From assembly GCA_030611885.1 (NCBI GenBank), contig JAUWOY010000008.1, forward strand, positions 1 through 64,000: a DNA stretch of 64,000 bases. The letters run 5' to 3'. Under the pieces are notes generated by a model. The model was given only the letters and a program-made list of their open reading frames with translations, was not told the DNA's origin and made no database searches. Origin of the DNA: Chloroflexota bacterium (GTDB lineage Bacteria; Chloroflexota; Anaerolineae; VGOG01). Positions 36,919 through 40,619 of the stretch are shown piece by piece; the first letter of the stretch is position 1, and each line of letters starts with the position of its first letter. The translations under genes and the position numbers were made by a program.

Positions 36919-37281
36919 CTACAGCGCCCTGTCTGGCCGCAGGGTCTGGGCTCCTTTGAGATAGACGTGCCGAATCTCCGCCGCGCTCTTCTCCGTGTTC
37001 CAGTGGATGAGGACCCGGATGCACCTCTCCAGGCTGCCCGGCACGGGTATCTCCTGGGCGTCGAGGAGAGCAACATCGCGCCAGCCCATCTCACGCGCTG
37101 CCCGGGCCGGGAAGGCGGCCGTCAGGTCGGGGGTGGTAGTGAAGATGGCGCTGGCTACGTCTTCCACTTTCAAGTCGTTGGCCTCGACGATGAGCGCCAG
37201 AAGCTCCCTGGTAGCAGCCAGAATGGCCTCGGCGGTGTTCTCTTCCGTGGTAGTTGCTCCTCGAATGCCTCGACAGTGCAT
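36919..37281 (-). CDS. aroH: Chorismate mutase, AroH type
   Basis: The start [15 protein letters not shown], together with the 120-residue length and [10 protein letters not shown], is diagnostic of the monofunctional trimeric AroH family as in Bacillus subtilis. It converts chorismate to prephenate, the substrate of TyrA three genes away. The ATG at 37281 follows GGAGGG. It is the first gene after the attenuator. Confidence 0.93.
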
Positions 37282-37300
37282 CTTTACCCTCCAGATAAAC

Positions 37301-37333
37301 AAAAAAGCGTGGACTTGTCTGCTCCACGCTTTT
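37301..37333 (-). terminator. Attenuator terminator of the aro operon
   Basis: On the minus strand AAAAGCGTGGA pairs with TCCACGCTTTT (11 bp, nine-base loop) and runs into six Ts. It sits 20 bases before aroH, inside the leader transcript. Its 5' arm plus the loop sequence (37319-37329) can alternatively pair with 37380-37390 in the leader peptide gene over 11 bp with one G-U. Confidence 0.88.
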
Positions 37334-37357
37334 GAGATACCGATGAATTGCTATGAC

Positions 37358-37489
37358 TTAAGGATGCGGTCTTCTCCGGGCGTGAAGCAGCTTGCCTGAT
37401 GCCTGGGCATAGGCGTAATAGTAGGCAAAGTAGTCCTCACGCCCCAAAAAACTAACTTTGATAGTCTCGTCCCACGGCTTGCCAGTCAT
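37358..37489 (-). CDS. Tyr/Phe-rich leader peptide of the aro operon
   Basis: A 43-codon frame starts about 20 bases after the predicted transcription start and follows GGGCCGGAG. Codons 20-27 read Tyr-Phe-Ala-Tyr-Tyr-Tyr-Ala-Tyr; Phe14 and Trp6 precede them. The frame ends before the terminator hairpin. Codons 16-18 contain GGGCGTGA, complementary to TCACGCCC in codons 36-38. The latter segment can also pair with the terminator's 5' arm. This is the arrangement of ribosome-mediated attenuation, with stalling at Tyr codons expected to favour the antiterminator. Confidence 0.85.
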   Translation of the reverse strand: MTGKPWDETIKVSFLGREDYFAYYYAYAQASGKLLHARRRPHP

Positions 37490-37516
37490 CTCCGGCCCTC
37501 TTTCAAAGCTGGGGAT

Positions 37517-37545
37517 ATGATAGCATAAAGGGGGATAAAAGTCAA
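37517..37545 (-). promoter_or_regulatory. Promoter of the aro operon leader
   Basis: On the minus strand TTGACT and TATCAT are 17 bases apart. It is divergent from the arg promoter; the two -35 boxes are only about 31 bases apart. Confidence 0.8.
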
Positions 37546-37576
37546 GCCTGGCTACTCAGACAGCTACAAACACGAT

Positions 37577-37605
37577 TTGACAATTATCTCAAGTTGTGGT
37601 ATAAG
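37577..37605 (+). promoter_or_regulatory. Promoter of the argG leader
   Basis: TTGACA and TATAAG are separated by 17 bases. The start site lies about 25 bases before the leader peptide ATG. Confidence 0.8.
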
Positions 37606-37636
37606 AGGGGCAATTCGGAAAGGAAGTAGGAATTCC

Positions 37637-37756
37637 ATGACGTCGTTCGGCAAGCGAAACTTCAGGCAGATCGTGATTAGGCGTTTTCGATCCAGGCGCT
37701 CGCTCTGGGGAGTTTCGCCCTGCCAAATGGTGCTTGCGGAGGCAAATCTCACGTAA
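37637..37756 (+). CDS. Arg-rich leader peptide before argG
   Basis: A 39-codon frame follows AAGGAAG and contains Arg at positions 7, 10, 15, 16, 18, 20 and 21, using CGA, AGG, CGT and CGC codons. It ends 20 bases before a terminator hairpin placed in front of argG. Seven Arg in fifteen codons is what ribosome-mediated attenuation by arginine would need. It has no resemblance to a structural protein. Confidence 0.75.
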   Translation: MTSFGKRNFRQIVIRRFRSRRSLWGVSPCQMVLAEANLT

Positions 37757-37776
37757 CCATCTTGCTTACTAGCGAC

Positions 37777-37818
37777 AGGCCGACTCTCCAGACATAAGTG
37801 TGTGAGAGTCGGCCTTTT
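37777..37818 (+). terminator. Attenuator-type terminator before argG
   Basis: AGGCCGACTCTC pairs perfectly with GAGAGTCGGCCT over 12 bp, followed by TTT. It lies between the Arg-rich leader frame and argG. GGGGAGT at 37707-37713 could pair with ACTCTCC at 37783-37789 as a competing, weaker stem. Confidence 0.82.
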
Positions 37819-37848
37819 GTTATCAAAAAATCGTCAGGAGGTAACGTC

Positions 37849-39096
37849 ATGAAAAAGGTTGTTTTGGCCTATTCGGGCGGACTGGACACCTCGGTGATTC
37901 TGGTCTGGCTGAAGGAACGCTACGGTTGTGAGGTGATCACCTTCACTGCCGACCTGGGCCAGGGAGAGGAGTTGGAGGGGCTGGAAGAAAAGGCGCTCTC
38001 CACGGGAGCCAGCAAAGTCTACATCGAGGACTTGCGCGAGGAGTTCCTGCTGGAGTACGCCTTCCCCACGGTGATGGCCGGGGCTATCTACGAGCGGCAG
38101 TACCTGCTGGGCACCTCCTTCGCCCGCCCGCTCACCGCCAAACGGCAGGTGGAGATCGCCGAGCTGGAGGGGGCCGACGCTGTGTCCCACGGCTGCACCG
38201 GCAAAGGCAACGACCAGGTGCGCTTTGAGCTGACCTACAAGGCCCTCAATCCCCGGCTGAAGGTCATCGCCCCCTGGCGGGAATGGGACATCCGCTCGCG
38301 AGAGGATGCGCTGGCCTACGCCGCGGCCCACGACATACCGGTAGCGACCACCGAGCGTTCCATCTATAGCCGCGACCGCAACATCTGGCACCTGAGCCAC
38401 GAGGGCGGGCTCCTGGAAGACCCCTGGCAGGAGCCAGAGGAGGACATGTTCGTGCTCACCGTCGCGCCTGAGGCCGCGCCCGACGAACCGCTCTATCTGA
38501 CCATTGATTTCAAAGAGGGCATACCTAAGCGCATTAATGGCGTGGCCTGCGGCGCGGTGGAGTTGCTGACCCGGCTGAACGAGCTGGGCGGCGCGCACGG
38601 CGGGGGACGGGAGGATCTGGTGGAGAACCAACTGGTGGGGATGAAATCCCACGGCGTGTACGAGACCCCCGGCGGCACTATCCTCTACACCGCCCACCGC
38701 GGCCTGGAGAGCATCTGCCTGGACCGGGAGATGCTGCACTACAAGGACGTCATCGCCCAGCGCTACGCGGAGCTGGTCTACTACGGCCTGTGGTTCACGC
38801 CGCTGCGCGAGGCGCTGGATGCCTTCGTGCGCAAGACACAGCAGACAGTCACCGGCACGGTGCGCCTCAAGCTGTACAAGGGAAGCTGCACGGTAGTCGG
38901 TCGCAAGTCCCCCTACAGCCTCTACCGGGAGGACTACGCCACCTTCGGCGAAGAGGACGTCTACGACCAGGCGGATGCCCAGGGCTTCATCAACCTCTTC
39001 GGCCTGCCGCTGAAGGTCAAAGCGCTGCTGGACATCGAGGGGTTAGGGATATCCGGCTATCGCTCGCCCGACTACAGCAAGTTCAAGCGGGACTGA
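37849..39096 (+). CDS. argG: Argininosuccinate synthase
   Basis: [17 protein letters not shown] is the ATP-pyrophosphatase P-loop of ArgG, and [14 protein letters not shown] binds citrulline/aspartate. The 415-residue length is normal. It joins citrulline and aspartate in arginine synthesis. The ATG at 37849 follows AGGAGG; the longer upstream frame would run through the terminator. argH follows after a repeat-filled gap. Confidence 0.96.
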
Positions 39097-39224: not shown

Positions 39225-40619
39225 ATGAAACTGTGGGGTGGACGGTTCGAGGGAACACCTGATGAGCTGATGGAGCGCTTCAACGCCTCCATCGGCTTCG
39301 ATTGGCGGCTGTGGGCGGCTGACATCGAGGGCAGCATGGCCTACGCCAGGGCACTGGAACGCGCCGAACTGCTCACCGCCGCCGAACGGGATCGGCTCAT
39401 CCAGGGGTTGGAGGCGGTGGCGCGGGAGTTCGAGACACTTGTCCTGGACGACAAGTACAGGGCCGGCGAGTTCGAGATCGTGCTTTCGGACGAGGACATC
39501 CACACCGCCGTCGAGCGGCGCCTGGGGGAACTGGTCGGCCAGGTAGCGGGCAAACTGCACACCGGGCGTAGCCGCAACGATCAGGTGGCTACCGACCTGC
39601 GGCTTTATCTGATGTGGGAGATCCCACACCTGCGCCAGCGGCTCGGCGAGCTGCAAGAAGCCATCCTGGCCAAGGCGGAGCAGCATCTGGACATCATCAT
39701 GCCCGGCTACACGCACTTGCAGCGGGCGCAGCCGGTGCTGTTCAGTCACTGGCTGATGAGCTATTTCTGGATGCTGCAGCGGGATCGGGAGCGGCTGGAC
39801 GACCTGGGGAAGCGCGTGGCCGTGCTGCCGCTGGGAGCGGGCGCGCTGGCCGGCCACTCCCTGGGCATTGACCGCCAGTTCCTGGCCGATGAGCTAGGCT
39901 TCCGAGCGGTCTGCGAGAACAGCCTGGATGCCGTGTCGGACCGCGATTTCGTGGCCGAGTGCCTGTTCTGGGCCGCGCTGCTGCAAACGCACCTCAGCCG
40001 CCTGGCCGAGGACCTGATCTTATGGTCATCGGCGGAGTTCGGCTTCGTGGAGTTGGACGACGCCTACGCCACTGGCTCCAGCCTGATGCCACAGAAGAAG
40101 AACCCCGACTCGCTGGAACTGCTGCGGGGCAAGGTGGGGCGCATGGTGGGACATCTGGTGGCTTTGCTGATCACGCTCAAGGGGCTGCCTTCGACCTACA
40201 ACAAGGATCTGCAAGAGGACAAGGAGCCGCTGTTCGACGCCCTGGACACCCTGAAGCTGGCGCTGCCGGTGGCAACGGGCGTGGTGCGCACCCTGGAGGT
40301 CAACGCCGAAGCAATGGCCGCCGCGCTCGACGACGCCATGCTGTCCACCGACCTGGCCGACTACCTGGTGCGCCGAGGCGTTCCCTTCCGCCAGAGCCAC
40401 GAACTGGTGGGCCGAGCGGTGCGGCGGGCCGAGGCGCTGCGATTGCCGCTGCGCGAGCTACCCCTGGCGGAGTTCCAGGCTATTTCTGAAGCCTTCGAAT
40501 CCGGCCTCTACGCGGTGTTCGACCATCGGCGTTCGGTGGAGGCGCGGGACTCCTACGGCGGCACGGCCACGGCGGCTGTCCGCCAGCAAATCGAGCGTGC
40601 CCGGTCAGTAAGCTCGTGA
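39225..40619 (+). CDS. argH: Argininosuccinate lyase
   Basis: KLWGGRFEG at the start, TGRSRNDQVATDLRL and the family signature GSSLMPQKKNPDSLEL identify ArgH of the fumarase/aspartase superfamily. It releases arginine and fumarate. An AGGAGGAAGG site precedes the ATG, and 464 residues is normal length. Its last 15 bases overlap the convergent radical SAM gene. Confidence 0.96.
   Translation: MKLWGGRFEGTPDELMERFNASIGFDWRLWAADIEGSMAYARALERAELLTAAERDRLIQGLEAVAREFETLVLDDKYRAGEFEIVLSDEDIHTAVERRLGELVGQVAGKLHTGRSRNDQVATDLRLYLMWEIPHLRQRLGELQEAILAKAEQHLDIIMPGYTHLQRAQPVLFSHWLMSYFWMLQRDRERLDDLGKRVAVLPLGAGALAGHSLGIDRQFLADELGFRAVCENSLDAVSDRDFVAECLFWAALLQTHLSRLAEDLILWSSAEFGFVELDDAYATGSSLMPQKKNPDSLELLRGKVGRMVGHLVALLITLKGLPSTYNKDLQEDKEPLFDALDTLKLALPVATGVVRTLEVNAEAMAAALDDAMLSTDLADYLVRRGVPFRQSHELVGRAVRRAEALRLPLRELPLAEFQAISEAFESGLYAVFDHRRSVEARDSYGGTATAAVRQQIERARSVSS

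Follow-up and report, generated by a model that had tools for sequence, protein, structure and literature searches.

What controls argG in a bacterium that places a short Arg-rich reading frame and a terminator in front of it? Textbook control of arginine synthesis in bacteria is by ArgR repression, or by T-boxes in some Firmicutes. We examined the question in a window of 64,000 nucleotides, the whole stretch of DNA analyzed here, from a Chloroflexota bacterium (Bacteria; Chloroflexota; Anaerolineae; VGOG01; GCA_030611885.1, JAUWOY010000008.1, positions 1-64,000, forward strand). The window encodes argininosuccinate synthase, argG (37849-39096, +; NF001770 and TIGR00032 above cut-off in NCBIfam), and argininosuccinate lyase, argH (39225-40619, +; TIGR00838 above cut-off), which likely belong to the same operon. 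On the + strand the elements follow one another as promoter, leader ORF, terminator, argG and argH. Very probably this arrangement is a transcription attenuator in which a translating ribosome senses charged tRNA-Arg and thereby controls argG-argH.

A sigma-70-type promoter, TTGACA-17-TATAAG, lies at 37577-37605 (+), with TTGACA at 37577-37582, a 17-nt spacer and TATAAG at 37600-37605. It was unlisted in our automatic promoter scan for the sole reason that the scan demands a T at the last position of the -10 element; TTGACA-type promoters also precede nearly all related leaders. The end of the -10 element is 31 nt from the ATG (37637) of a leader ORF of 39 codons, MTSFGKRNFRQIVIRRFRSRRSLWGVSPCQMVLAEANLT (37637-37756, +; TAA at 37754-37756), which has no NCBIfam match and which, with the Shine-Dalgarno-like AGGAAGTAGG upstream of its ATG, is predicted to be translated. 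Arg occupies codons 7, 10, 15, 16, 18, 20 and 21. The intrinsic terminator, AGGCCGACTCTC / GAGAGTCGGCCT with a T-rich tail (37777-37823, +), has a perfect 12-bp stem (37777-37788 / 37804-37815) and a 15-nt loop, and 33 nt separate the end of the stem from the argG ATG (37849). A preliminary description of this DNA had reported the promoter, the seven Arg within codons 7-21 of a 39-codon frame and the perfect 12-bp stem, and each was located in the sequence.

Several of these features stood out from chance. Seven Arg codons within 15 occurred in 0.6% of 3000 shuffles, a perfect 12-bp hairpin appeared in 0 of 1000 dinucleotide-preserving shuffles of the leader, and the leader RNA folded with z = -3.8. 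The leader uses AGG or CGA for five of its seven Arg residues, codons that make up 12% and 14% of the Arg codons in neighboring genes; the preferred codons in seven such genes are CGC (39%) and CGG (25%). This choice of codons would be expected to sharpen stalling. The interrupted U-tract of the terminator is a point against the attenuator reading.

Three segments of the leader could form alternative helices. Segment 1, GCGAAACTTC (37654-37663, +), detected in the minimum-free-energy fold of the leader and as an inverted repeat, forms a helix with 37709-37718 that would prevent antiterminator formation. Segment 2, TCTGGGGAGTT (37704-37714, +), is the antiterminator 5' arm; its homologue in relatives, TCTGGATAGT, contains the stop codon of the leader, TAG. 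Segment 3, GACTCTCCAGA (37782-37792, +), is the antiterminator 3' arm and overlaps the 5' arm and loop of the terminator. The helix TCTGGGGAGTT:GACTCTCCAGA comprises 11 bp (9 Watson-Crick and 2 G-U), and it and the terminator are mutually exclusive.

To follow this choice along the leader, we truncated the nascent RNA immediately upstream of the terminator 3' arm and folded it with a ribosome placed at each codon in turn and only the downstream RNA left free; the ribosome footprint used is a simplification. For a ribosome stalled anywhere in codons 1-19, the mean pair probability of the antiterminator was 0.92-0.96; it dropped to 0.64 at Arg20 and 0.04 at Arg21, and was 0 at all later codons. 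Stalling at six of the seven Arg codons thus spares the antiterminator, and within the limits of the simplified footprint the control codons are placed as expected: the antiterminator is left free by a ribosome that stalls and is lost when the ribosome goes on to finish. A competing stem of GGGGAGT (37707-37713) with ACTCTCC (37783-37789) had been proposed earlier and judged weaker and close to the Arg run. The stem is real, but it is part of the 11-bp helix and stronger than had been supposed, and the folding shows it to be well placed. Without a ribosome, P(1:2) was 0.40 versus 0.56 for the antiterminator (2:3); that ribosome-free folding still yields the antiterminator about half the time counts against the attenuator reading.

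The proposed sequence of events is as follows. As RNA polymerase transcribes the leader, a ribosome would translate the 39-codon ORF. With arginine in short supply, the ribosome would stall at an Arg codon (7 to 20) and cover segment 1, leaving segment 2 (37704-37714) to pair with segment 3 (37782-37792); this would sequester the 5' arm of the terminator, and transcription would read through into argG. With arginine plentiful, the ribosome would pass segment 2 to reach the stop codon at 37754; segment 2 would be occupied first by the ribosome and later by segment 1, so that the 5' arm of the terminator would pair with its own 3' arm and transcription would stop at about 37820.

The comparison drew on 209 argG upstream regions, of which Chloroflexota contributed 145, and on several others obtained by searching the phylum; a few loci are present twice, in two collections. 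About 40 argG loci showed a promoter, then an ATG-initiated ORF with an Arg run, then a terminator. Examples of the related leaders are MNIGTMPASEIRRRTDERSDPASG, MFILRRRRT, MSARCDFLTRRIRRRRTCPESGGLDVPGQR, MHHLSSLANVRARRTRRNRSGPVRRCAAR and MFSTFALPRTRRPKPASHREGRDLFVWMME. In the cultivable Anaerolinea A. thermolimosa (L006), a terminator accompanies a short leader with RR. They span at least 15 family-level groups of Anaerolineae, and similar leaders occur in other Chloroflexota families (L248, L257, L261, L264) and in two Neomarinimicrobiota (L014, L025); plasmid records held only distant argG genes. An Arg run, defined as RRR or as four Arg among five residues of an ATG ORF lying within 300 nt, was present in 35 of the 145 regions of the Anaerolineae set, versus 6.6 +/- 2.9 expected and at most 15 in Markov shuffles (n=100). 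Among the same 145 regions the next residue, Ala, gave 11 runs, and Arg on the reverse strand gave 2. According to the preliminary description, a lack of conserved Arg codons in the leaders of relatives would overturn its reading; about 40 leaders, otherwise unrelated in peptide sequence, contain such runs.

The peptides range from MFILRRRRT to 39 codons and, like the terminators, differ between related leaders, with the Arg run alone common to all and no further shared motif. All six Arg codons occur across the leaders, which fits the sensing of tRNA-Arg charging and not of one codon or a fixed peptide. These observations bear on a different sensor for the same RNA switch, in which the nascent peptide would itself sense arginine or ornithine in the ribosome tunnel and arrest translation, as SpeFL reportedly does with ornithine. 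An Arg-containing leader is known to sense this pathway in Salmonella (orf34; PMC6386406), and a motif, FALPRxRRPKP, is kept in some subgroups (L009, L011, L012, L013, L255, L258, L269). Arrest peptides, however, normally keep specific residues at a fixed distance from the stall site, and across the whole set only the Arg run is held in common, so we regard a tunnel sensor as very unlikely.

The match of leader arm and terminator within each locus was examined by swapping. The leader arm was scored against its own terminator and against the terminators of other clusters, for 13 cluster representatives. Own arms scored 212 versus 167 +/- 8 for swapped arms (p = 5e-5). The arm pairs differ in sequence, for example GTCTGGA:TCCAGAC, GAGAAGG:CCTTCTC, GGTCCGG:CCGGACC and GAGGTGG:CCACCTC, together with GTTCGGGG:CCCCGAAC and TTGGTCTGG:CCAGACCAA. 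Members of the subgroup to which the window belongs differ at the pair 37709:37787: some have A-U, and L166 and L175 have G-C, both sides having changed. Antiterminator z-scores for single loci against shuffled leaders were weak (mean 0.68), because GC-rich leaders always have some complementarity; the swap between terminator clusters is the better control. Pair counting in alignment A1 gave 52% paired with the structure as given and 85% when slid by +1, and was not relied on, since a one-column shift puts the window's longer stem out of register. Conserved Arg runs and the co-variation of arm and terminator together support the ribosome-mediated attenuation by arginine put forward in the preliminary description.

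The same comparison makes it improbable, to much the same degree as a tunnel sensor, that the frame owes its Arg codons to chance in a GC-rich leader and that the hairpin terminates transcription constitutively or under the control of a protein. Arg-rich frames do come easily in GC-rich DNA, as both the 0.6% of shuffles and the runs in 6.6 of 145 Markov-shuffled regions indicate. Yet 35 of 145 regions carry them, against 15 or fewer in 100 shuffles, and on the sense strand only; the order of promoter, ATG, Arg run, arm, terminator and argG is constant; and a fortuitous frame would leave the matching of arms (p = 5e-5) unexplained. On every feature testable here, the argG leader appears to belong with the ribosome-mediated attenuators, and we find the case from sequence and comparison convincing; leader translation, termination in cells and the response to arginine are what we infer from it.

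For one subgroup, with AACCACGATGG terminators (L108, L109, L121, L127, L128, L137, L139, L163, L170, L185, L198, L202), the swap test gave no clear antiterminator, a further point against the attenuator reading; its members have conserved hairpins of their own. Most of them show a GGGACGAGGTCAGAT / ATCTGAACTCGAATCCC-like pairing 3' of the Arg codons, and in some the Arg codons CGCAGGCG are able to pair with a downstream CGCCTGCG.

The window leader is a variant within its own subgroup. In the alignment its TCTGGGGAGTTTCG lies opposite TCTGGATAGTTTCG of L086, a relative with 87% ArgG identity across the first 120 residues. There, and in most of the subgroup, the leader ends at the TAG within the arm, which places a ribosome that completes translation on the arm itself. 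The window has GAG in place of this TAG, and out of frame as well; its leader extends 42 nt past segment 2, and its antiterminator helix is longer. That the window leader reads through segment 2, unlike those of most subgroup relatives, counts against the attenuator reading. The closest ArgG relatives, L002 (92%) and L083 (89%), have argG behind another gene and without a leader; hence the attenuator is unconserved in the immediate neighborhood. The gap before argG in L002 and L083 contains short direct repeats. The gene before argG in L002, L083 and L003, the last likewise without a leader, encodes a product that we take to resemble an ArgE/LysK-type deacylase.

The spacing between promoter and leader points to an unusual mode of initiation in many relatives. 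Among the 38 leaders with an assignable promoter, 21 have a -10 hexamer that ends 6-10 nt before the leader ATG; they include L006, L009, L011-L013, L017, L108, L109, L121, L128, L137 and L139, and further L163, L170, L183, L185, L190, L198, L202 and L206. Such spacing implies that translation would start at the 5' end of the transcript or only a few bases from it, and many of the Arg leader ORFs are probably leaderless. In the remaining promoter-assigned leaders the distance from the -10 hexamer to the ATG is mostly 21-57 nt, the window falling among these with 31.

Control of argG by an arginine T-box, a riboswitch or an ArgR operator, with the leader secondary, is exceedingly improbable: arginine T-boxes exist elsewhere (PMC1262725) and the window has a T-box before thrS, but neither a T-box nor a riboswitch was matched in Rfam at 37250-37900, at the gathering threshold or at E up to 1, and none of 60 genomes of the class, the window genome (G000) among them, had a match to the ArgR C-terminal domain (PF02863), with 8 of 14 control genomes positive. 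The T-box of the window (Rfam RF00230; 63032-63308, -) is an ordinary one and lies directly before the gene with a threonyl-tRNA synthetase-like product.

Neither argC (TIGR01850) nor a full-length carA (TIGR01368) was matched in the window genome, which is 93% complete; controls were positive. The same genome holds four ornithine-carbamoyltransferase-like genes. Arginine synthesis upstream of argG may follow another route, or parts of it may be missing from the 93% complete genome. The argF-like genes had no Arg leader in the upstream regions inspected, and with argC and carA unfound a genome-wide Arg-leader regulon could not be shown.

The argG leader resembles known systems in part. It shares with the fungal arginine attenuator peptide a small upstream peptide on an arginine-pathway gene and a predicted response to arginine. 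The fungal peptide is a eukaryotic translational arrest peptide, which involves neither starvation for Arg codons nor transcription termination. With the trp, his, thr, leu, ilv and phe attenuators of Proteobacteria and those of Actinobacteria (PMC1262725), it has in common a promoter, a short ORF with a run of codons for the product amino acid and a biosynthetic operon downstream; as in trp- and his-type attenuators, the antiterminator overlaps an intrinsic terminator and the segments follow 1:2 / 2:3 / 3:4 logic. It differs from these in amino acid (arginine), in phylum (Chloroflexota), in the apparently leaderless ORFs of many relatives and in peptides that are otherwise unconserved. In Salmonella, orf34 (SpeFL) is likewise a short Arg-codon ORF reporting arginine, sensed through two consecutive Arg codons with translation speed as the report. 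It lies upstream of speF, however, and controls an ornithine decarboxylase of polyamine synthesis via Rho termination, access to the ribosome binding site and RNase G decay (PMC6386406), unlike the argG system with its intrinsic terminator before an arginine-synthesis gene. The carAB leader of Pseudomonas also encodes a leader peptide before a gene feeding arginine synthesis, and differs in that its attenuation is pyrimidine-responsive, arginine acting separately at the transcriptional level, as described in a citing paper (PMC4997734).

Leader-peptide attenuators have been described in Proteobacteria and Actinobacteria, to which Naville and Gautheret added Firmicutes (PMC2965389). A survey of Actinobacteria reported no RNA element upstream of arginine operons and, elsewhere, only T-boxes for arginine (PMC1262725). 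Searching the literature on arginine leader peptides with attenuation or Chloroflexi, we found no earlier arginine attenuator of arginine biosynthesis; most subscription papers lay outside this search, and priority is not established. The argG leaders would extend leader-peptide attenuation to a new amino acid and a new phylum, and they offer dozens of natural variants, in terminators, stop positions and leaderless starts, for studying how attenuators originate and change.

Divergent from argG is a second candidate attenuator, before a cluster of aroH, DAHP synthase, prephenate dehydrogenase, aroA and aroE (NCBIfam support). Its leader ORF, MTGKPWDETIKVSFLGREDYFAYYYAYAQASGKLLHARRRPHP (37358-37489, -; from the ORF list), contains the Phe/Tyr run FLGREDYFAYYYAYAQ, and the terminator AAAAGCGTGGA / TCCACGCTTTT (37303-37333, -; inverted repeats) precedes aroH. 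Folding with a ribosome at the Tyr/Phe codons predicts an antiterminator here as well. Runs of at least 5 Phe/Tyr/Trp in 8 codons (e.g., YYYYYYY, FYFVYFYFF, YFYFYFY) were present in 28 of 30 Anaerolineae aroH upstream regions (L218-L247), usually followed by a terminator, which supports a Phe/Tyr attenuator before the aroH-led operon as a class-wide trait. The -35 element of the aro promoter begins at 37545 (-), 31 nt from that of the arg promoter. Divergent promoters about 30 bases apart and an aro attenuator of other specificity had both been noted before, and both are borne out by these data. Of the accompanying remark that two divergent attenuators are unusual, the part about head-to-head placement stands, but each attenuator singly is widespread in the class.

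A class without a detectable ArgR appears to use the ribosome as its arginine sensor and to apply the same device to its aromatic pathway. We consider it reasonably probable, with less assurance than for the argG attenuator itself, that Anaerolineae and some other Chloroflexota families dispense with ArgR; that Arg-codon attenuators, many of them with leaderless ORFs whose start codon is at the transcription start, control the last two steps of arginine synthesis; that one lineage has a head-to-head Arg and Phe/Tyr pair; and that the Arg specificity and the phylum are previously undescribed. Conservation of the back-to-back layout was considered and rejected, argG and aroH lying on different contigs or tens of kb apart in the compared relatives. 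A sister genome (G002) keeps the aro leader and has argG on another contig, so each attenuator is class-wide and the head-to-head layout local. Where the two do meet, some 550 bp of DNA would be expected to report on two amino acids, one in each direction.
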